Shown here piece after piece: positions 194 through 9,812 of a DNA stretch of 9,812 nucleotides. The DNA is from Actinomycetes bacterium (lineage in GTDB: Bacteria; Actinomycetota; Acidimicrobiia; Acidimicrobiales; JAKAOS01). The stretch spans positions 1 through 9,812 of the forward strand of contig JAJYGW010000133.1 in the NCBI GenBank assembly GCA_021790615.1, written 5' to 3'. A program made the position numbers and the translations under genes. The notes under the pieces were generated by a model that saw nothing but the letters and a program-made list of their open reading frames with translations, ran no database searches and was not told the origin of the DNA. The stretch's first letter is position 1. Every line of letters starts with the position of its first letter.

Positions 194-1564
194 ATGGCCT
201 CGAGACCGCCGTCGATCGACGCGCTCGCCCGGTCGATCGCGGACGTCGGGCTGCCCCACGCGCTGCTCGTGGAGGCCGCACGCTCGGCCGTGGCGGCCGG
301 AGAACCGGCCGAGGCGAGGGCGATGGCGGAGGAGATGGCGCTCGCACTGCTCCGTCCCGTCGTGAACGCGACCGGCGTCCTCTTGCACACGAACCTCGGC
401 CGGGCACCGCTCGGGGCTCATTCGCCCGCGCGACCGGCCAACGTCGAGCTCGACCTCGCCACGGGGTCGCGAGGTTCGCGCCAGTCGCACGTGGCGCCCT
501 TGCTCGCCCGGCTGACCGGAGCCGAGGACGCGATCGTGGTGAACAACGGTGCGGCCGCCGTGCTGCTCGTGCTGGCGGCACTGGCGGCCTCCCGGCCGGT
601 GGTGGTGAGCCGGGGCGAGTTGGTCGAGATCGGTGGCGGGTTCCGTGTCCCCGAGGTGATGAACAGCTCCGGTGCGCGCCTCGTCGAGGTCGGGACCACG
701 AACCGCACCCGGCTGGCCGACTACCGCCGAGCGCTCGACGAGTCGCCCGACGTCGCCCTCGTCCTCAAAGTCCACCAGTCGAACTACCGCATCGTCGGGT
801 TCACCGAGTCCGTCTCGGTGCGTGAGCTGTCACAGCTGCCTGTCCCGCTCGTGGTCGACCTGGGCTCTGGCCTGCTCGACTCGACGACCCCCTGGCTGGA
901 GGGGCGTCCTCCCGCCTGGCTCGCAGAAGAGCCGGCAGTGCGCCAGAGCCTGCGAGCCGGGGCGGCGCTCGTCACGTTCTCGGGGGACAAGCTCTTCGGC
1001 GGCCCGCAGGCCGGCGTCATCGCCGGCCGGCGGGAGCTGGTCGCCCGCTGTGCTCGCCATGCGCTCGCGAGAGCCGTGCGCCCCGGGGGGCTCGTGCTGT
1101 CGGCGCTCCAGGACGTTGCACTTGCGTACCTGCGCCGGGATGCGTCCTCGATCCCGTTCTGGCGAATGGCGACCTCCCCGGTCGACGAGATACGTGAGCG
1201 GGCGGCCGTCGTGGCGGAGAAGGTCGGCTCGCCGGCATCCGTGACGGCCTGCTCGTCGGTCCCGGGCGCCGGGTCCGCGCCCGGCCAGGCGATCCCCTCC
1301 TTCGGAGTCGCCGTCGCGGGCGACCTCCTGGCTCCCCTGCGGCGCTGCGACACCCCGGTCATCGCGCGGGTGCAGGACGGGCGGACGATCTGTGACCTCC
1401 GCAGCGTCGACCCGTCTGACGACGGCGTGTTGGCGGACGGCCTTGCACGGGCAGTGGCCGTCGGGCCCCGCGACGACAGGCTTTCCGGACCTGCATCCGG
1501 GGCGACGGGACGTTCTCGCCGAAGTTCCGGAGACACACCCCCTCGCGCGACGGGGACGAGGTGA
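194..1564 (+). CDS. selA: L-seryl-tRNA(Sec) selenium transferase (SelA)
   Basis: SelA is a cytoplasmic PLP enzyme that converts Ser-tRNA-Sec to Sec-tRNA-Sec using selenophosphate from SelD. The 456 residues compare with about 463 in E. coli. Visible family blocks are PPSID near the N-terminus, NATGVLLHTNLGRAPL (about residues 58-73), ELDLATGSRGSR, VVNNGAAAVLL, SRGELVEIGGGFR and VEVGTTNRT. The PLP lysine is K266 in TFSGDKLFGGPQAG. ATG 194 is the only reasonable start because an in-frame TGA lies at 185-187. The N-terminal block LRPVVNATG matches the family, so the protein looks full length. About 30 residues after the expected C-terminus form a Gly/Ser/Arg/Thr-rich tail with more AT-ending codons. 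The usual RVDK segment reads RPGG. selB begins 1 base after the stop. Confidence 0.96.
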   Translation: MASRPPSIDALARSIADVGLPHALLVEAARSAVAAGEPAEARAMAEEMALALLRPVVNATGVLLHTNLGRAPLGAHSPARPANVELDLATGSRGSRQSHVAPLLARLTGAEDAIVVNNGAAAVLLVLAALAASRPVVVSRGELVEIGGGFRVPEVMNSSGARLVEVGTTNRTRLADYRRALDESPDVALVLKVHQSNYRIVGFTESVSVRELSQLPVPLVVDLGSGLLDSTTPWLEGRPPAWLAEEPAVRQSLRAGAALVTFSGDKLFGGPQAGVIAGRRELVARCARHALARAVRPGGLVLSALQDVALAYLRRDASSIPFWRMATSPVDEIRERAAVVAEKVGSPASVTACSSVPGAGSAPGQAIPSFGVAVAGDLLAPLRRCDTPVIARVQDGRTICDLRSVDPSDDGVLADGLARAVAVGPRDDRLSGPASGATGRSRRSSGDTPPRATGTR

Positions 1565-1565
1565 C

Positions 1566-3353
1566 ATGGCGGCTCACGTCGTCGCCACCGCCGGCCATGT
1601 CGACCACGGCAAGTCCACCCTCGTCCAGGCGTTGACGGGGATGGACCCCGACCGTTTCGCCGAGGAGAAGGCGCGAGGTCTCACGATCGACCTCGGCTTT
1701 GCCTGGACGGAGCTGCCGTCGGGCCGGGAGATCGCGTTCGTCGACGTGCCGGGGCACGTCCGCCTGATCAAGAACATGCTCGCCGGGGCAGGCACCGTCG
1801 ACCGCTGCCTGTTCGTCGTGGCCGCGGGCGAGGGGTGGAAGCCGCAGTCGGAGGAACACCTGCGCATCCTCGAACTGCTCGCGTATCGCGACGGGATCAT
1901 CGCTTTGACGAAGGTTGCCGGGCTCGATCCTCACCTCGTCGACGTCGCACGGTCCGAAGTGGCCGATCGGGTGGCCGGAACGTTTCTCGAGGGCCGACCC
2001 GTCGTCGCGGTCGATGCTCCCGCCGGTCTCGGTCTCGGGGAGTTGCGGGTGGCGCTCGACGATCTCTGCGCCTCATCAGCGCGGGGGCTCGGTGATGACT
2101 CCGTCACCGGCGAGGGCAAGGCCGAGGGGGTTCGCCTGTGGGTCGACAGGTCCTTCTCGGTCCGGGGGAGCGGCACCGTCGTGACCGGCATGCTGTCGGG
2201 GGGTTCGCTCCGTGTGGGCGATCGTCTCGAGGTCGTGCCGGGACGCTCACCGGACTTCCGGCCCCTCGAGGCACGTGTGCGGGGTCTGCAGGCGCAGATG
2301 CGACCGGTGGAGCAGGCGCGTCCCGGACGGGTCGCCGTCAACCTCGCCGGTCTCTCCGCTCGAGACGTCGAGCGCGGTCGGGCGCTCGTGGCGCCTTTGA
2401 CCTTCGAGCCGGCTCGAGTCGTCGACGTGTCTCTGTCCGTTCTGCCCGGCCTCGGCCACGAGGTGAGCCGGCGGGGGGCATACCGCGCACACTTCGGGTC
2501 CGGGCAGCACGAGGTCCGCCTGCGCCTCCTCGACGTGGGCGTGCTCCTCCCGGGGGAGCAGGCGTGCGCCCGCCTCCACCTGCCCGTGCCGTTGCCCCTG
2601 TTGCCGGGCGATCGCTTCGTCCTGCGTGAGGCGGGCAGGTCCGAGACGGTCGGCGGAGGCGACGTCCTCGATGTCGCCCCGGTGCTGCCGGCCTCGAAGG
2701 CGAGGCCGGATCGCTCGGTCGACCGAGTCATACGAGAGCGCCGCTTCGTCGACGCGGCTCTGTTGGCGCGGATGACGGGAGTGCGGCGGCACCCGGATCT
2801 CGGGGGGCGCTGGGTGTCCGACCCGGTCGCGCGCGCCGCCGCCTCCGCCGCTCTCCTCGGTCGAGTCGAGAGCGCTGGGCCACTCGGGCTCGACGTGTCG
2901 ACGCTCGGCGACCTCGACCGTGCGATCCTCACGACACTGGCCGGTGACGTCGTCATCGAAGGTGGTCAGGCGCGCCCGGTCGCATCTCCGTCACCGGTTG
3001 CGCATCCCTACGTCGCAGCGCTCGAGGCGTCTCCCTACCAACCGCCCGATCCGACGACGTGCCACGTCGACCGGCGGGAGCTGCGCGAGCTGCTCCGGCA
3101 GGGGAGCGTCGTGGAGAGCGGCGGGTGTTACTTCGCCCGCTCGGCGGTGGAGCAGGCGGCCGAGGTCGTGGCATCGATGCTGGCCGAGCAGCCTGCAGGG
3201 GTGACTGCCTCGGCTGTGCGCGAACGCCTCGGCACGAGCCGGAAGTACGTGTTGCCGTTGCTCGCACATCTCGATGCGAGCGGTGTCACGCGCCGCCGGG
3301 GAGATGTGCGAACGGCCGGGCCGAGGCTGCCGCGGGTGCCCGCATGCGGCTGA
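1566..3353 (+). CDS. selB: Selenocysteine-specific translation elongation factor (SelB)
   Basis: SelB is a GTPase that carries Sec-tRNA-Sec to the ribosome and binds the SECIS hairpin of selenoprotein mRNAs. I chose ATG 1566, one base after the selA stop, because it puts the GTPase P-loop at the usual place; an upstream extension within selA is unlikely. The protein has 595 residues against 614 in E. coli. Motifs: G1 GHVDHGKST (10-18), G2 RGLTIDLGFAW with T40, and G3 DVPGH (60-64). The G4 site reads TKVA (115-118) where TKxD is expected. Domain II starts near residue 190 (VDRSFSVRGSGTVVTG). The end of domain III is marked by SETVGGGDVLD. Winged-helix domains follow, ending in the SECIS-binding WH4 block (GTSRKYVLPLLAHLD then GDVR). 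It overlaps selD by 10 bases, so translation is probably coupled. Confidence 0.95.
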   Translation: MAAHVVATAGHVDHGKSTLVQALTGMDPDRFAEEKARGLTIDLGFAWTELPSGREIAFVDVPGHVRLIKNMLAGAGTVDRCLFVVAAGEGWKPQSEEHLRILELLAYRDGIIALTKVAGLDPHLVDVARSEVADRVAGTFLEGRPVVAVDAPAGLGLGELRVALDDLCASSARGLGDDSVTGEGKAEGVRLWVDRSFSVRGSGTVVTGMLSGGSLRVGDRLEVVPGRSPDFRPLEARVRGLQAQMRPVEQARPGRVAVNLAGLSARDVERGRALVAPLTFEPARVVDVSLSVLPGLGHEVSRRGAYRAHFGSGQHEVRLRLLDVGVLLPGEQACARLHLPVPLPLLPGDRFVLREAGRSETVGGGDVLDVAPVLPASKARPDRSVDRVIRERRFVDAALLARMTGVRRHPDLGGRWVSDPVARAAASAALLGRVESAGPLGLDVSTLGDLDRAILTTLAGDVVIEGGQARPVASPSPVAHPYVAALEASPYQPPDPTTCHVDRRELRELLRQGSVVESGGCYFARSAVEQAAEVVASMLAEQPAGVTASAVRERLGTSRKYVLPLLAHLDASGVTRRRGDVRTAGPRLPRVPACG

Positions 3354-4345
3354 CCGAGCACGCTCCCGGCGGCGGATGCTCCTGCAAGGTGTCCGCCGGT
3401 GACCTCGAGAGGTGGCTCGGCCTCGCTTACGGCGACCTCGCGCCGCCCTTGCTCCCGCCCGGAGCCGAGCTCCTGTGCGGCCTCGACTCGGGCGACGACG
3501 CCACGGTCGTCCGCATCGAAGGCGGGACCGCAATCGTGACGACGACCGACTTCTTCCCGCCCGTCGTCGACTCCGCCTTCGACTGGGGCCGCATCGCGGC
3601 TACGAACGCCATCTCGGACGTGTACGCCATGGGCGGCGAGCCGCTGTCGGCACTCAACCTGCTCGCCTGGCCGTCCTCTCTCCCTCCCGAGCTCGCCGTC
3701 GAGGCGCTGAGGGGAGCCCGGTCGGTCGCGGACGGTGAGGGCTTCGTCCTCGCCGGGGGCCACAGCATCGTCGCCGAGGTGCCGCTGTTCGGCCTTGCCG
3801 TCACGGGGACTGCCGACCCCGACCGCCTCCTGCGAAACGACGCCGCCCGAGCCGGTCTGCCGATCACCCTGACCAAGCCCCTCGGTCTCGGCATCCTCAA
3901 CAACTGGCACAAGGCGACGGGCGCGCCCATCGACGAAGCCATCGCGGTCATGACGCGATCCAACCGGGGGGCCTCCCGTGCGGCACTGGCCGCCGGGATC
4001 GAGGCGGCGACGGATGTCACTGGATTCGGCCTGCTCGGCCACCTGTACAAGATGGCGCGTGCGAGCGGCGTGACGGCCGTCATCGACGCGGCCGCGATCC
4101 CCTGTCTCGCAGGGGCCCGGGAGCGACTGGACAAGGGCTACGTCCCCGGTGGCACGCGCCGCAACCTCGACTGGGTGCGCCCGCACCTCGAGGTCGCGGC
4201 GCGGCTGGAGGAGGCCGACCTCCTGCTCCTGGCGGACGCCCAGACATCTGGTGGCCTGCTCGTGGCGGGCGAGATAGCCGGCTCGCCCGTCATCGGCGAA
4301 TTCACCGAGCCCGGACCGGGACCGGCCATTCTCGTCGTCCGCTGA
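3344..4345 (+). CDS. selD: Selenide, water dikinase (selenophosphate synthetase, SelD), Cys type
   Basis: SelD makes selenophosphate from selenide and ATP, the selenium donor for SelA and for tRNA 2-selenouridine formation. I chose ATG 3344, inside the end of selB, because it puts the glycine-rich catalytic loop GGGCSCK at residues 9-15, as in known SelD proteins; the open frame further upstream is a shadow of selB. The protein has 333 residues, a normal size. Catalytic residues are C12 and K15. The codon for residue 12 is TGC, so this is a Cys enzyme, not a selenoprotein. Other family blocks are TTTDFFPPVVD, AATNAISDVYAMGG, GGHSI, LTKPLGLGIL, DVTGFGLLGH and DAQTSGGLL (usually DPQTSGGLL). It is the third protein gene of the sel operon and is followed 33 bases later by the tRNA-Sec gene. 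Confidence 0.95.
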   Translation: MRLTEHAPGGGCSCKVSAGDLERWLGLAYGDLAPPLLPPGAELLCGLDSGDDATVVRIEGGTAIVTTTDFFPPVVDSAFDWGRIAATNAISDVYAMGGEPLSALNLLAWPSSLPPELAVEALRGARSVADGEGFVLAGGHSIVAEVPLFGLAVTGTADPDRLLRNDAARAGLPITLTKPLGLGILNNWHKATGAPIDEAIAVMTRSNRGASRAALAAGIEAATDVTGFGLLGHLYKMARASGVTAVIDAAAIPCLAGARERLDKGYVPGGTRRNLDWVRPHLEVAARLEEADLLLLADAQTSGGLLVAGEIAGSPVIGEFTEPGPGPAILVVR

Positions 4346-4365
4346 ACTCGGTGGCGGCCGCCCGC

Positions 4366-4371
4366 TAGCCT
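4366..4371 (+). promoter_or_regulatory. Candidate -10 element for tRNA-Sec
   Basis: TAGCCT fits TANNNT and ends 7 bases before the first tRNA base. This would place the transcription start at tRNA position 1, without a 5' leader. A possible -35 (CTGAAC, 4342-4347, three of six matches to TTGACA) overlaps the selD stop. The tRNA could equally be cut out of a selABD readthrough transcript. Confidence 0.2.
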
Positions 4372-4378
4372 CGCCGCC

Positions 4379-4471
4379 GGAGGTGTCTGGGCACCTGGTG
4401 GGCTCCCCCGCCTTCAAAGCGGGTGGGACGGGCGATCCCCGTCCGGCGGGTTCGATTCCCGTCCACCTCCG
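4379..4471 (+). tRNA. selC: tRNA-Sec (anticodon TCA)
   Basis: A 93-nt selenocysteine tRNA that aligns without gaps, apart from arm lengths, to the E. coli molecule. The acceptor is GGAGGTG (4379-4385) paired with CACCTCC (4464-4470), followed by discriminator G 4471. The eighth pair is a T4386/C4463 mismatch. The extended 6-position D stem is GGGCAC (4389-4394) with GGGCTC (4400-4405), with one A/G mismatch. The anticodon stem is CCCGC/GCGGG, with loop CTTCAAA (4412-4418) and anticodon TCA at 4414-4416. The long variable arm is GGACGGG (4426-4432) paired with CCCGTCC (4438-4444). The T arm is GCGGG TTCGATT CCCGT (4446-4462). CCA is not encoded (CCG follows). It reads UGA and is the substrate of SelA and cargo of SelB, both encoded just upstream. 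Confidence 0.96.
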
Positions 4472-4509
4472 CCGCCGCCCACCTCTGGCACCGCCCACCT
4501 CCGGCACCG
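4462..4509 (+). repeat. Three tandem 16-bp units starting in the tRNA-Sec 3' end
   Basis: Three head-to-tail units occupy 4462-4477 (TCCACCTCCGCCGCCG), 4478-4493 (CCCACCTCTGGCACCG) and 4494-4509 (CCCACCTCCGGCACCG). Units 2 and 3 differ at one base. Unit 1 contains the 3' acceptor strand and discriminator of tRNA-Sec. The array looks like repeat expansion of the tRNA end. Slippage, or the scar of an element that used the tRNA 3' end as an attachment site, are both possible. Confidence 0.7.
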
Positions 4510-4635
4510 TGGCTAGACTGCGTCAGCCGGATGAGGCTCCGGCGGGCACGCGCTGGCTGTACGCCGGCGGTTGCCCGAACTGTCCACCCGACTGATGGCC
4601 TCTGCGCACGTATAGGGCACTGCGTGGAGGTGTAG
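4472..4635 (+). other. Intergenic region between tRNA-Sec and the Ehr/hydrogenase-like operon
   Basis: This is the longest gap in the window. It holds the last two repeat units, a TANNNT-like TAGACT (4514-4519), a perfect hairpin at 4526-4543 and a TATAGG (4611-4616) shortly before the next gene. TAGACT has no good -35. TATAGG has CCGACT (4588-4593) 17 bases upstream, a weak match. I see no coding frame of the local codon style and no terminator with a T tract. A promoter for the downstream operon is likely here, but none of the candidates is convincing. Confidence 0.5.
4526..4543 (+). other. Perfect 6-bp hairpin, possible terminator or 5' leader structure
   Basis: GCCGGA (4526-4531) pairs fully with TCCGGC (4538-4543) around a 6-base loop. 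No T run follows, so it is not a classical intrinsic terminator. It begins about 7 bases after TAGACT (4514-4519), so it could instead lie at the very 5' end of the downstream mRNA. Confidence 0.3.
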
Positions 4636-5598
4636 GTGACAGGAGTGGAGCTGGCCCCGGCGGAGATCCAGGTCTTGCAGGACCTCACGATCCTCGTCTT
4701 CGCGCCTTTCGTCTCCGGCGCGATCGCCCACGTCGAGGCCCGGGTGCAGGGTCGGCGCGGTCCCCGGATCCTCCAGCCCTACTACGACATCGCGAAGCTC
4801 TTCCGCAAGGAGACGCTCGTCCCGGAGGACGCGAGCTTCGTCTTCCTCGTCGCTCCGATCGTGGCCTTCGTCTGCTACCTCACGGTGCCGCTTTTGATAC
4901 CCGTCCTCACGAGCTATCCGCTTCCGCTCGGGTACATGGGAGACATCCTCGGGGGCGGGTTCATCCTGGCGCTGGCCGGGTTCGCGGTGGCGTTGGCGGC
5001 GGCGGAGACGGACGCTCCCTACGCGCAGCTCGGGAGCAGCCGGGCGATGACCTTCGGCGCGCTCGTCGAGCCGTCCATCCTCTTCGTGACGTTCACGGTC
5101 GCGCTCCTCACCGCCACCGATCTGCCGTACTTCGAGGCCGCCGCTGTGCGCCCGCTCGGTCAGGCCGTCCACCCAGCCCACATCCTCGCCGCGTTCGCCT
5201 TCTTCCTCGTGGTGCTGGCCGACACGGGGCGCATCCCCGTCGAGACCCATTCGAGCACGCTCGAGTTCGGGATGATCGACGAGGCTCGCACGCTCGAGCA
5301 TTCGGGACCGGCCTTCGCCCTCTTGAAGTGGGGAGCCGCGATGAAGCAGATGGTCCTCTACGTCATCTTGATCAACGTCTTCGTCGCGCCGTGGGGCCTC
5401 GCCGGCTCGCGCCAACTCGGCTCCGTGCTCCTCGCGATCCCGATCTTCCTCGCGAAGGCCCTCGGCCTCGGGATCGTCTTCGCCGTCATCGACAACAGCT
5501 TCTCCAAGCTGCGCCTGTTCAAGATCACCGAGTTCATGGCCGCCGCCTTCCTCCTCGCGGTGCTGGCAGTGCTGGTCCTGTACCTGGGAGGTCGTTGA
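4636..5598 (+). CDS. hyfC: HyfC/HycD-like (NuoH-family) membrane subunit of a hydrogenase-related complex
   Basis: NuoH-family integral membrane subunit that links the peripheral arm to the ion-pumping subunits in group 4 hydrogenases and complex I. The GTG start has a strong GGAGG site (4626-4630) 5 bases before it; a second GTG at 4645 is too close to its own purine run. The 320 residues match the family size, with many hydrophobic helices. Signature segments are ARVQGRRGPRILQPYYDIAK (about 35-54), followed by LFRKE, and the acidic loop ETHSSTLEFGMIDEARTLE (about 203-221). In this loop E203, E210, D215 and E216 correspond to the conserved carboxylates near the quinone/cluster end. The gene opens a five-gene operon. 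The name follows homology; the complex may not make or use hydrogen. Confidence 0.9.
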   Translation: MTGVELAPAEIQVLQDLTILVFAPFVSGAIAHVEARVQGRRGPRILQPYYDIAKLFRKETLVPEDASFVFLVAPIVAFVCYLTVPLLIPVLTSYPLPLGYMGDILGGGFILALAGFAVALAAAETDAPYAQLGSSRAMTFGALVEPSILFVTFTVALLTATDLPYFEAAAVRPLGQAVHPAHILAAFAFFLVVLADTGRIPVETHSSTLEFGMIDEARTLEHSGPAFALLKWGAAMKQMVLYVILINVFVAPWGLAGSRQLGSVLLAIPIFLAKALGLGIVFAVIDNSFSKLRLFKITEFMAAAFLLAVLAVLVLYLGGR

Positions 5599-6281
5599 TG
5601 CACGGCCTGTCAGCGGCAGCGAGCGCTCCGTCAGCCGTCACGGGTGCGGCCGAGACCGTCGCGATCCTCGTCCTGCTCTCCGAGTTCGCCATGCTGCGCG
5701 CGGCTCTGTCCCGCTCCCAGGTCCGGCTCTACGCCTTCCAGTCCCTTGCCGTCGCAGCCCTTGCGTTCATCGTGGCAGCCGAGCGCCACATCGGCGAGCT
5801 GTACGTGCTCGGGGGGCTCTCCGTGCTGCTGAAGGTCCTGATCGTGCCTGCCATCATCTACCGCGTACTTCGGGAGGCGCCCGACGACGTCGCGACGAGC
5901 CATCGCTTCGGGGTCGCCTCCATGGTGCTCCTCGCCATCGTCCTCTCCGGCTTCGGGATCTTCGTCGTCGGCACGATGCCGATCCACTCGAAGCTGCTCC
6001 CGGTGCTGGCACTCGCGGTCGCGGCTGCGGTGATCCTCGTCGCCTTCCTGCTCGTGATCGTGCGCTCCGACGTCGTGTCCCAGGCCGTCGGCTTCTTCTC
6101 GCTCGAGAACGGGGTCTCGCTCGCGAGCTTCGTCCTCGCGGCCGGCCTTCCCCTCATCGCGGAGGTTGCCTTCCTCTTCGATCTGCTGGTGGCGGTGGTC
6201 GTCTTCGGCGTCCTGATGCGAGTGCACCATGGGCGCAGCGCGAGCCTCTCCACTCGCCCGCTCGAAAGACTGCGGGGGTAG
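5598..6281 (+). CDS. hyfE: HyfE-like (NuoK-family) membrane subunit
   Basis: Small multi-helix membrane protein, 227 residues against 216 in E. coli HyfE, with about seven hydrophobic segments. I chose ATG 5598 because it overlaps the preceding TGA by one base (TGATG), the coupled-start pattern of this operon; the open frame further upstream is a shadow of the previous gene. The family signature FFSLENGV is at 166-173, with E170, and further acidic membrane residues are E189 and D195, as expected for an ion path. It resembles HycP in the mycobacterial hyc-like cluster, which as I recall has the same order of HycD, HycP, HycQ and HycE. It should sit between the HyfC- and HyfF-like proteins in the membrane arm. 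Confidence 0.85.
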   Translation: MHGLSAAASAPSAVTGAAETVAILVLLSEFAMLRAALSRSQVRLYAFQSLAVAALAFIVAAERHIGELYVLGGLSVLLKVLIVPAIIYRVLREAPDDVATSHRFGVASMVLLAIVLSGFGIFVVGTMPIHSKLLPVLALAVAAAVILVAFLLVIVRSDVVSQAVGFFSLENGVSLASFVLAAGLPLIAEVAFLFDLLVAVVVFGVLMRVHHGRSASLSTRPLERLRG

Positions 6282-6284
6282 GCG

Positions 6285-7736
6285 ATGGGTGGGGTGCTCG
6301 TCGCTCTCATGATCGTGCCGTTCGTGGCGACGGTGGCGTCCCTCGTGGCCGCGCCTCGGATCGGCAAGGCGCTGACCGTGGTGGCGGGAGCCACGAGCCT
6401 CGGGCTGGCCGTCTCCCTCCTCGGTTCCGGGAGGGTGGCGACGGCTCTCGCCGGCTGGCTCCGAGTCGACTCGCTGTCGCTCGTCTTCCTGCTTGCCGTC
6501 GCGTTCCTTTACGCCTCGACAGCGCTGTTCGCCGTCGGCTACGTCGAGAGTGGTCAGGACGACGGGGGGCGGTACGCGCGCCGTTTCTTCGCGGGTCTCA
6601 ACCTATTCGCCTGGGCGATGCTGATGGCTCCGATCGTGAGCGACTTCGCCCTCTTGTGGGTGGCCGTCGAAGTGACCACGGTCGTGTCGGCGCTCCTCGT
6701 CGCGATCGACGACACTGACGGGGCGGTGGAAGCGGCGTGGAAGTACGTCCTCATCGCATCGATGGGCCTCGGCCTCGCCCTGCTGGCCACGCTCGTCATG
6801 TACTACGCGGGGACGGCGACCCTCGGAAGCGGCTACGAGCTCTTCTTTCCGAGACTCCTCGCCGGCGCGCATCACTTCCAGCCGGAGGTGGTGCGTCTCG
6901 CCTTCGGCCTCGCGGTGCTCGGCTTCGGTTCGAAGATGGGCCTCGTCCCGGTGCACACCTGGCTGCCCGACGCACACTCCGAGGCGCCGACCCCCATCTC
7001 GGCGCTGCTGTCGGGGGCCCTCCTCACCGTGAGCTTCTACGCCATCCTCCGCTTCTACCAGGTGACGAGGCTCGCCGTCGGATCTGCCTTCCCACGAGAC
7101 GTCCTCCTCGTCTTCGGCATCGCCTCGCTCGCGCTCGCAGCCCTCTACGTCGCTCGCCAGCGTGATTTGAAGCGGCTGCTCGCCTACTCAAGCGTCGAGC
7201 ACATGGGCATCCTCGCGATCGGCATGAGCTTCGCGGCGCCCATCGCCGTCGCGGGGGTGCTGCTCCAGGTGCTCGCCCACGCGGCGGCGAAGTCGACGGC
7301 CTTCTTCGGGGCGGGGAGCGTCATCCGCAAGTTCGGCACGAAGGACCTCGAGCGCGTCAGCGGGGGCATCGGAGCGCTCCCGTGGAGCGGTCCGATGTTC
7401 GTGCTCGCGGTCCTCGCCCTCTCGGCGATGCCCCCGTTCGGCCTCTTCAGGAGTGAGTTCCTCATCGTCGAGGGCGGCCTCGCCTCGTCGGCGACGGCGC
7501 TCACCGCAGTGCTCGTGGCTCTCGTCACGATCGCCTTCCTCGGGCTCTCCTGGCACGCGAGCCAGATCATGCTCACGCCTCTGCCGGACGGAGTCCTCCG
7601 CGGCGAGACGAGCAAGGTCATGCCTGTCGCCATGGTGGTCGGGCTCGCCGCGCTCGTTCTTCTCGGCGTCCACCCGCCTGCCCAGCTCTCCGAGCTCATC
7701 ACGCGGGCCGCGGCAGAGCTGGGCGCAGGACGATGA
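6285..7736 (+). CDS. hyfF: HyfF-like (NuoN/MrpD-family) antiporter-type membrane subunit
   Basis: Antiporter-like proton or sodium translocating subunit, 483 residues with about 14 hydrophobic segments (E. coli HyfF about 526). It starts 3 bases after the previous stop. Conserved charged residues of the ion channel are present: E129 in WVAVE, K153 in AAWKY, K217 in GFGSKMGLVPVHTWLPDAHS, and H332 and K336 in LAHAAAKS. The blocks EAPTPISALLSGALL and DLKRLLAYSSVEHMG are typical of HyfF/HycC. The pump therefore looks intact even though the redox subunits downstream are not. The stop overlaps the next start by 4 bases (ATGA). It is the only large antiporter-like subunit seen; a HyfB-like partner is missing from the window. 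Confidence 0.92.
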   Translation: MGGVLVALMIVPFVATVASLVAAPRIGKALTVVAGATSLGLAVSLLGSGRVATALAGWLRVDSLSLVFLLAVAFLYASTALFAVGYVESGQDDGGRYARRFFAGLNLFAWAMLMAPIVSDFALLWVAVEVTTVVSALLVAIDDTDGAVEAAWKYVLIASMGLGLALLATLVMYYAGTATLGSGYELFFPRLLAGAHHFQPEVVRLAFGLAVLGFGSKMGLVPVHTWLPDAHSEAPTPISALLSGALLTVSFYAILRFYQVTRLAVGSAFPRDVLLVFGIASLALAALYVARQRDLKRLLAYSSVEHMGILAIGMSFAAPIAVAGVLLQVLAHAAAKSTAFFGAGSVIRKFGTKDLERVSGGIGALPWSGPMFVLAVLALSAMPPFGLFRSEFLIVEGGLASSATALTAVLVALVTIAFLGLSWHASQIMLTPLPDGVLRGETSKVMPVAMVVGLAALVLLGVHPPAQLSELITRAAAELGAGR

Positions 7737-9232
7737 GCGCCGTCCCGCCCACCGTGCGCCTTGCTCCGGACGAGCTGGCGGGCGCGGTCGGTGAGCGTGT
7801 CGCGGGCGGTCGGCGTTTCGCCGGGCTGGTTGCGAGCGGAGACGATGCCGGCTCGACGATCCTGCGAGCCTTCATCGCCGGCGGTCCCTCCTTCGAGGTG
7901 GTGGAGACCGAGCTTCCGGCGGGAGTCAGCGAGTACCCGTCGCTCACGCCGTCGGTTCCCGCCGCCTCGTGGTACGAGCGCGAGATCCACGACCTGTACG
8001 GGATCACGCCCGCCGGCCACCCGCGCCTCGACCCGCTCGTCCTTCCCCTCGCCGGCACGGACCGGGCACACCCGAGGCCGGGCTCGAGCACGGCGGTGGG
8101 ACAGCTGACACTCGATCGCTCGCCGCTCCCCGCCCACGTCACGGGGGAAGGTCTCTTCACGATCCCGTACGGCCCGGTCCGCTCCGGGGTGTTCGAGTCG
8201 GTCGAGTACCTCGTCGAAAGCTACGGGGAGGACATCCCTCACCTGCGGACCAGGGTGTACTACAAGCACCGGGGTATCGAGCGACGCTTCAGCGATCTGC
8301 GCATCCGTGACGGCGTCCTCCTCGCAGAGCGGGTGGAGGGGACAGCGTCGGTCGCCCATGCCGTGGCGTTCTGCCAGGCGGTCGAGAGCCTGACCGGGGT
8401 CGACCCCACACCGGCGGCGGACCTCGTCCGCGTCGTGCACCTCGAGCTCGAGCGAGTCGCTTGTCACCTCGACTCGGTCATCAGGCACACCGAGGGCTCC
8501 GGACAGGCGGTCGCGTATGCACGCATGTCTCTGCACAAGGAGCGCCTCATGCGCCTGCGAGCCCGCTTGTGCGGGCATCGCTTCGGCCGGGGCGTCGCCG
8601 TGCCGGGCGGTGTCAGCGGTCCGCTCCTTCTCGAGCCGGCGGACGCCCTCGCCGGCGTCGAGGCCTTGGAGGAGGCGATCGCGAAGGACATGGCCGTCCT
8701 GATGCAGACCCCATCGTTCCTCGACCGTCTCCGTTCCACCGGCACCCTGCCATCCGACGTCGCTGAGATCCACGGTGCGCTCGGCCCGGTCGGTCGAGGT
8801 TCCGGTGTCGTGAACGACGTCCGCGAAGATCGCCCTTACGGCGGCTACCGGCTGCTCGGCGTCGACGTCGCCAAGCCGGAGCCGGCCGGTGACGCCCTCG
8901 CTCGCCAGCGGGTGCGACTGGAGGAGATCAGCAGCTCCTTCAGCCTGGTCCGCCGAGCTCTCGACGAGCTCTCCGCGTCCAGGGCCGAGCCGACGTGGTG
9001 CCGGGACATGCCGGAGGCAGACGGACTCGGTGTCGGCTGGGTCGAGGCGCCGCAGGGCGAGCTGCTGTATCTCGTGGAGGTGCGGCGGGGACGGATCATC
9101 CGGACGGCACCCCGCACGGCCTCCTTCCACAACCTCGCCCTCATGCCCCAGGCGTTCCGGGGGGACATCTTGACGGACTTCGTGTTCATCGAGGCGAGCT
9201 TCGGCCTCTCGATGGCGGGGGTCGCGCGCTGA
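7733..9232 (+). CDS. hyfG: HyfG/HycE-like fused NuoC-NuoD subunit lacking NiFe ligands (Ehr type)
   Basis: Peripheral large subunit, 499 residues. A NuoC-like domain covers about 1-125 (signature WYEREIHDLYGITPAGHP, 80-97). A NuoD/hydrogenase large-subunit domain covers about 138-499 (YYKHRGIERRFSDL, GHRFGRGV, PGGV, NDVREDRPYGGY, VEAPQGE). In true hydrogenases of this group the segment at 200-209 reads RVCGICSVAH or similar; here it is RVEGTASVAH, so both cysteines are replaced (E202, A205). The C-terminal DPCxSC segment is also lost: S493 and G496 stand at the cysteine places, just before the final R499. The GPxHP motif of NuoD reads GPVRS (147-151). It therefore cannot hold a standard NiFe centre and belongs with hydrogenase-related (Ehr) complexes. 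It overlaps hyfF by 4 bases. Confidence 0.92.
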   Translation: MSAVPPTVRLAPDELAGAVGERVAGGRRFAGLVASGDDAGSTILRAFIAGGPSFEVVETELPAGVSEYPSLTPSVPAASWYEREIHDLYGITPAGHPRLDPLVLPLAGTDRAHPRPGSSTAVGQLTLDRSPLPAHVTGEGLFTIPYGPVRSGVFESVEYLVESYGEDIPHLRTRVYYKHRGIERRFSDLRIRDGVLLAERVEGTASVAHAVAFCQAVESLTGVDPTPAADLVRVVHLELERVACHLDSVIRHTEGSGQAVAYARMSLHKERLMRLRARLCGHRFGRGVAVPGGVSGPLLLEPADALAGVEALEEAIAKDMAVLMQTPSFLDRLRSTGTLPSDVAEIHGALGPVGRGSGVVNDVREDRPYGGYRLLGVDVAKPEPAGDALARQRVRLEEISSSFSLVRRALDELSASRAEPTWCRDMPEADGLGVGWVEAPQGELLYLVEVRRGRIIRTAPRTASFHNLALMPQAFRGDILTDFVFIEASFGLSMAGVAR

Positions 9233-9812
9233 TGGCCGCCTGGTTGCTGCGGGGCCTGCGCGAGGGCGTCGTGACGACGCGGTACCCGCGGCGGCCCGAC
9301 GACTACGGGGAGAGCTTCCGGGCGGCGGTCTCGGTCGTGCCATCCGCCGCGTCGCCCTCGGACGCCCGGCTCGCGGACCTGTGCCCGACCGGTGCCATCT
9401 CGGTGGAGACCGACCGGGTGCTCCTCGACAGAGGGCGCTGCATCGTCTGCGGCCGCTGCGTCACCGCTGCTCCGGACCGCTTCAAATTCGAGTCCGGGCC
9501 CGAGGTCGCGTCTGTCCGAAGGGCCGCTCTCGTCGTGCCGAAGGCCGGGGAGGAGGGCGTCGATTTCGACGGCCTGCGCGAAGGACTCCGCACGCAGGTG
9601 AAGGCCTTTCGGCGCTCGGTACATGTCCGGCACGTCGACGCCGGCTCCGACGGATCGGAGGAGTGGGAGGTCTCCGCTCTGCTCAACCCCGTCTACGACG
9701 TTCAGCGTCTCGGCATCTACTTCACGGCCTCCCCACGCCACGCCGACATCCTCCTCGTGACCGGAGCGGGCTCCATCGGGATGCTCGACCCGCTCCGCAC
9801 GACCTACGACGC
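9232..9812 (+). CDS. Ferredoxin-NuoB-like fusion (HyfH-HyfI type), 3' end beyond window
   Basis: ATG overlaps the hyfG stop by one base (TGATG); 193 codons are visible before the window ends. The N-terminus (LREGVVTTRYPRR) resembles HycF/HyfH. A ferredoxin domain follows with LCPTGAI (C51) and CIVCGRC (C70, C73, C76), enough for one [4Fe-4S] cluster. The first CxxCxxC triplet is absent and the eighth cysteine is A80, so the second cluster is lost. From about 126 the protein is NuoB/HyfI-like (ALLNPVYDVQRLGI, 149-162; SPRHADILLVTG, 167-178). The CNGC motif that should precede EWEV reads DGSE (140-143), so two ligands of the proximal cluster are missing. Later ligands would lie beyond the window. 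The fusion resembles what I recall of Rv0082 in the mycobacterial hyc-like cluster. Confidence 0.88.
   Translation, partial: MAAWLLRGLREGVVTTRYPRRPDDYGESFRAAVSVVPSAASPSDARLADLCPTGAISVETDRVLLDRGRCIVCGRCVTAAPDRFKFESGPEVASVRRAALVVPKAGEEGVDFDGLREGLRTQVKAFRRSVHVRHVDAGSDGSEEWEVSALLNPVYDVQRLGIYFTASPRHADILLVTGAGSIGMLDPLRTTYD

Follow-up and report, generated by a model that had tools for sequence, protein, structure and literature searches.

The window, by which we mean the whole stretch of 9,812 nucleotides analysed here, carries most of one Ehr complex: a group 4 hydrogenase subunit set from which the NiFe ligands are gone, and whose small subunit has also lost all four cysteines that would bind N2, the proximal [4Fe-4S] cluster. 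The operon is under predicted fluoride-riboswitch control, and this points to reuse of an old electron-carrying machine in fluoride resistance. Ehr stands for energy-converting hydrogenase-related complexes, reportedly described as such by Marreiros et al. in 2013; the NADH module (NuoEFG) that marks respiratory complex I was not found in the operon on this contig. We give about even chances to the reading in which fluoride induces the complex and, its redox arm being dead, it serves as an ion transporter, the transport itself being predicted from sequence.

The small subunit is HyfI-like and joins a one-cluster ferredoxin domain to a NuoB fold in a single chain (9232..9812, forward strand); its gene starts at the ATG at 9232 and continues past the window end. 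The whole gene, encoding 262 residues, was read in the window's assembly (L005:3555-4343, on G000:C47); the window shows scattered substitutions against this contig, such as Ile/Val at residue 71 and Phe/Leu at residue 112 of the small subunit, and is thus of another strain or assembly, with DGSE unchanged between the two. By sequence profile and fold, the protein belongs to the NuoB/HycG small subunits (PF01058), but it has none of the four N2 cysteines of that family. The sequence-only reading had placed DGSE, flanked by DAGS and EWEV, where CNGC normally stands, and had supposed the cluster to be absent or changed. The translation bears this out (DAGS at 9637-9648, DGSE at 9649-9660, EWEV from 9661), as does the register of phmmer alignments to FHL subunit 7 (7z0s_G) and MbhJ (6cfw_J), in which D140 and E143 align with the two cysteines of CNGC, N2 ligands 1 and 2. 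The reading even understated the case: in the full gene the two later ligands, which it had proposed to check, are lost as well, the third (GxC site) being Asp207 in GTDATSGG and the fourth (GCP site) Ser237 in PGSPPSP, so that C, C, C, C has become D, E, D, S.

These replacements are conserved. In the best 120 of 4638 relatives from the protein search, a list that takes in the window's protein, all four positions are without Cys in every sequence (DEDS in 111, DDDS in 8, DEDA in 1). The same is true of all 80 loci kept as the best of 328 relatives in the genome scan, all from Actinomycetota, which read DEDS in 60 and DDDS in 8, with the other 12 rows in eight further combinations; the two sets may have sequences in common. 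In these loci position 1 is always Asp (80/80), position 2 Asp or Glu in 77/80, position 3 Asp or Glu in 80/80 and position 4 Ser in 73/80. Since the positions are free of Cys throughout both sets, the loss is not decay, and an isolated decayed copy is ruled out; so is a sequencing error at DGSE, as the motif is clade-wide and the assembly is identical there. A scan of viral contigs returned no relatives.

The large subunit, HyfG/HycE-like (7733..9232, forward strand), has been altered in parallel, which confirms the earlier suspicion that the whole catalytic end was rebuilt. Group 4 [NiFe] hydrogenases have two Cys pairs in this subunit; here the first motif reads RVEGTASVAH (approximately 8330-8359), with E and A at the Cys positions (the former being Glu202, 8336-8338), and the second, EASFGLSMAG (approximately 9191-9220), is free of Cys. 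Relatives in the 80 kept loci mostly read ERxEGxASxAH and EASFGLSxAG; the Glu at the first NiFe Cys is found in 78/78 readable rows, and the same position is Ser in 5/5 sister-clade rows compared. In the ferredoxin domain of the small subunit, Cys51, Cys70, Cys73 and Cys76 (9382..9459, forward strand) are kept in 80/80 loci; they suffice for one [4Fe-4S] cluster and are the presumed ligands of the only one remaining. The full motif CxxCxxCxxxCP occurs in 3/120 listed close relatives, against 117/120 listed of the sister type, and the Cys-Pro of the second ferredoxin motif is likewise retained in 3/120 listed close relatives; by these motifs, the fused domain is predicted to have lost one ferredoxin cluster of two.

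The membrane arm appears to be intact. The operon opens, all on the forward strand, with a HycD/NuoH-like subunit with a GTG start (4636..5598), followed by a HyfE-like (5598..6281; NF008556, 81 bits, under its cut-off of 136) and a HyfF-like, antiporter-type subunit (6285..7736); on the contig beyond the window, a HyfB-like gene is the last subunit gene; between it and the end of the contig lies a gene that looks, by eye, universal-stress-like. Charged residues of the arm are conserved by alignment, in HyfF Glu129 (67/67 readable rows), Lys217 (75/75) and Lys336 (77/77), and in HyfB Glu139 (75/77), Lys218 (78/78) and Lys346 (78/78), where eight HyfF rows and about four HyfB rows are matches to the paralogous subunit, the true gene being off the contig. 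These residues presumably correspond to the set of complex I-type antiporter subunits: Glu in TM5, Lys in TM7, His or Lys in TM11 and Glu in TM12. The Lys of TM8 is missing, which is not peculiar to the Cys-less clade: in seven plasmid Ehr loci outside it, this site is Asn in HyfF in six (the row of the seventh is misaligned), and in HyfB Asn in four and Lys in three.

Ahead of the operon lies a predicted fluoride riboswitch aptamer (4523..4613, forward strand), identified by a lineage model, by pairing and by covariation. It has the P1 stem, the hairpin and the pseudoknot that form the core of RF01734, the pseudoknot joining GAGGC (4533-4537) with GCCTC (4598-4602). Because of an insert of about 33 nt between P1 and the AAC segment, it falls below the Rfam cut-off, with 16.2 bits against a gathering threshold of 34, which relatives pass. 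A first model (R1), trained on 25 Rfam-passing aptamers, ranked it first of 44 candidates in the window with filters off, at a weak score (14.7 bits, E 0.025), and for this reason a second model (R2) was trained on 17 lineage aptamers from related loci, leaving the window out. R2 gives the window's aptamer 69.8 bits (E 2.3e-14), and in the 3.04-Mb assembly it is the only strong match (E 6.7e-12; the next has E 2.3). A second fluoride riboswitch was not found in the assembly with RF01734, R1 or R2; the first two carry little weight on absence, because in genome-wide use (for R1, with 150 of 4061 candidates scored) both missed the window's own copy.

The same arrangement recurs in relatives. Aptamers passing the Rfam threshold were found in 7/7 Actinomycetota loci tested (six named strains and one MAG), in 6/7 on the same strand approximately 45-135 nt upstream of the operon (HycD); Rfam fluoride riboswitches also precede the operon in Mycobacterium branderi, with a NUDIX gene between, in Caballeronia and in B. 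cenocepacia. R1 matches within 300 nt of HycD in 53/64 loci with enough upstream sequence (46/57 outside the training set), and in the 11 misses the aptamer core is visible by eye. A pattern search with pseudoknot check matches the window at 4530-4605 and lies 16-237 nt before HycD in 35/75 loci (33/64 of the Actinomycetota set, 2/11 of the others), with no match in 1.64 Mb of reversed sequence. When an alignment of 11 rows, the window's included, is set against the structure described for the family, pairing holds in 97.2% of cells, falling to 28-57% in slid controls; all five pseudoknot pairs form in 11/11 rows (100%), and in three pairs both bases have changed. One of five covariation measures, further pair types, is no higher than in shuffles.

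The order of events can be read from a tree of 79 NuoB domains, built with the ligand columns removed on 127 columns, a small number; it holds several long branches (L121, L122 and L096 among them), and we draw only on the two clades named here. One (99/98) comprises the Cys-less Actinomycetota; the other, larger (96/90), unites it with the proteobacterial and the CCPS type. The proteobacterial sister clade, of Burkholderia type, has CCCC at N2 in 120/120, the best 120 of 7812 relatives. The riboswitch precedes the operon in every part of the larger clade, in the members with enough upstream sequence (L118-L120, L132-L134, L135 with 53.3 bits in R2, L136 with 29.7 bits in R1); none was found at 11 loci that fall outside that clade (L121-L127, L137-L140), with best E values of 0.35 for R1 and 2.5 for R2. 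Since the Cys-bearing sister clade also has the riboswitch, fluoride control most likely came earlier, and the predicted loss of the N2 cluster later.

Variants of the N2 site occur in further loci. L090-L093 and L132-L134 have an intermediate motif, CCPS, in which CGAC is kept and the third and fourth ligands are changed; their small subunit is without the ferredoxin part, and a fluoride riboswitch stands ahead of it. L121, on plasmid pMESIL01 of Allomeiothermus silvanus and on a long branch, has lost all four N2 cysteines (T, D, E, S), apparently independently of the Cys-less clade; no fluoride riboswitch was detected before its Ehr operon. L154, from the same order as the window, reads D, V, D, D at the four positions, with no adjoining ferredoxin part by tblastn.

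The fluoride channel CrcB gave no match in the window's assembly (81% complete), which has two CLC proteins. A Burkholderia CrcB query matched none of the 80 loci (0/80), and whole-genome searches were therefore used. Among 59 genomes of the order, 7 have an Ehr at E 1e-50 or better: the six with a Cys-less Ehr have no CrcB match (0/6), the seventh, with CCCC, has CrcB, and of the 53 genomes besides the six 44 have CrcB and 9 have none (Fisher p 1.1e-4; p = 3.4e-4 for CrcB against Cys-less Ehr in 46 good genomes). In the 79 genomes reached from the 80 loci, a set that is without completeness values, includes many incomplete MAGs and related, non-independent genomes, and overlaps the order set (four of the six Cys-less order genomes are apparently shared), CrcB and Cys-less Ehr coexist in 47 (18/32 and 29/47). 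Because of this coexistence, replacement of CrcB by Ehr is not general, and exclusion of CrcB by Cys-less Ehr is ruled out as a general rule.

In the reading we prefer, cells accumulating fluoride would switch on the Ehr complex via the aptamer. With the electron path through the small subunit to the catalytic or quinone site presumably closed, the complex would carry out Mrp-like secondary ion transport, easing fluoride stress by expelling either fluoride with coupled ions or the protons brought in by HF. D140, E143 and D207 at the former N2 site, together with Glu202 at the former NiFe site, would form a metal-binding or protonatable coupling site, and the sole cluster left would have a structural role or act as a redox sensor. 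The loss of the ligands, the kept fold, the kept membrane-arm residues, the riboswitch in the window and in relatives, and the absence of CrcB from the order's six genomes with a Cys-less Ehr all speak in its favour; against it, the riboswitch is evidence for regulation, not for transport. Taken to its full extent, namely that this complex I relative is an electron-free, fluoride-induced pump whose membrane arm moves fluoride out of the cell together with H+ or Na+, the gate being a carboxylate and perhaps metal-fluoride site at the former N2 position, and that it stands in for CrcB in some Actinomycetota, the proposal is distinctly doubtful.

The strongest rival, though itself rather unlikely, is a complex that is still a redox pump: the ferredoxin cluster would accept electrons from a mobile donor and deliver them to an organic cofactor or substrate newly housed in the vacated N2/NiFe cavity, and proton pumping would restore the membrane potential eroded by fluoride. 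Energy supply would suffer under fluoride because it inhibits enolase and pyrophosphatase, according to the accessible part of PMC5533749. The invariance of the ferredoxin CCCC in all 80 loci hints at residual redox use, and the membrane arm is intact; the sister clade, which has the same switch, retains N2 and two cluster motifs, so that a role under fluoride is possible with a working redox arm, and the function common to both clades may be redox-driven. Among the invariant residues, however, no new Cys set is seen and only one clade-specific His, H466 of the large subunit. The retained cluster, which we take to be N6b by complex I numbering, would moreover lie some 25 Å from the old active site, with no N2 between. 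An improbable further reading would have the small subunit as a redox-dead sensor or scaffold, in which fluoride or a metal-fluoride complex at the acidic N2 site gates the membrane arm; this is consistent with the three conserved carboxylates in place of cluster ligands and with the clade's Glu202, and is countered by the sister clade, which is under fluoride control with its N2 motif intact.

The least probable reading is a chain linked to formate dehydrogenase, of formate hydrogenlyase type, suggested by a selenocysteine kit at 194-4473 of the window (selA, selB, selD and tRNA-Sec, the last at 4379-4473), directly upstream of the operon, beside which an FdhA of actinobacterial type (NF041513) with an in-frame UGA lies on the other strand (L004:6204-9449). 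FDH-Ehr pairs have been proposed in other cases, as the available part of PMC6349859 has it, but tblastn with FdhA, SelA, SelB and SelD (E 1e-10) gave no match throughout the 80 related loci, which reach no further than 10 kb in either direction and are often truncated by contig ends; past tRNA-Sec, moreover, the Ehr operon is preceded by a riboswitch of its own. Set against these loci, the linkage is seen in this genome only; formate hydrogenlyase identity is rejected on synteny, and we treat the sel genes and FdhA as neighbours.

Returning to the transporter reading, Mrp antiporters, unlike the window complex, are not known to have NuoB/NuoD-like subunits. The likeness lies in the antiporter-type membrane subunits, which in Mrp cation/proton antiporters work without redox centres (PMC7419157, accessible part). 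From residue conservation, redox-free antiport of the Mrp type is predicted for the window complex. The top PDB match of the large, small, HycD-like and HyfB-like subunits is E. coli formate hydrogenlyase (7z0s), from which the complex differs in being without the NiFe site and N2 and in the fusion of its small subunit to a one-cluster ferredoxin domain. With Ehr complexes as treated in the available part of PMC6349859, it shares the group 4 hydrogenase subunit set with NiFe ligands gone; it is, in addition, without N2 and one ferredoxin cluster, and has the conserved acidic replacements and the fluoride riboswitch. The regulatory link is known in kind, as Weinberg et al. (2010; PMC2864571), in the text accessible, noted 'formate hydrogen lyase' genes behind the crcB-motif fluoride riboswitch, the same arrangement of an aptamer ahead of FHL-like genes; redox-centre loss or a Cys-less clade are not mentioned in that portion. 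The sole paper found with both 'fluoride riboswitch' and 'hydrogenase' (PMC12595759) deals, in its accessible part, with E. coli and PFAS, and no published description of the redox-stripped clade, the acidic replacements or the CrcB pattern was found in a search of an open-access library. The genes noted in 2010 would gain a testable function, and genomes without CrcB a candidate fluoride defence. One fluoride-controlled clade, with clusters kept, partly lost and wholly lost and the ion-path residues retained, offers an apparent natural experiment on whether a complex I-type membrane arm can carry out useful ion transport without an electron chain.

Several loci hold two Ehr operons. In L020 (353-4610 and 7188-12514), one is of the Cys-less type and the other, diverged, has its own riboswitch, with an enolase-like gene between them; L155 has a Cys-less operon and a diverged copy reading SCAACES at the N2 site; and in L122, on a Variovorax plasmid, two operons adjoin, the first encoding a small subunit of the fused kind in which the N2 cysteines are retained. 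Among the neighbours in the 80 loci are enolase in 9 and DUF190 in 15. Plasmid relatives also have neighbours of fluoride type: DUF190 and enolase in one record, and DUF190, pyrophosphatase, crcB and a chloride-channel-type gene in another.
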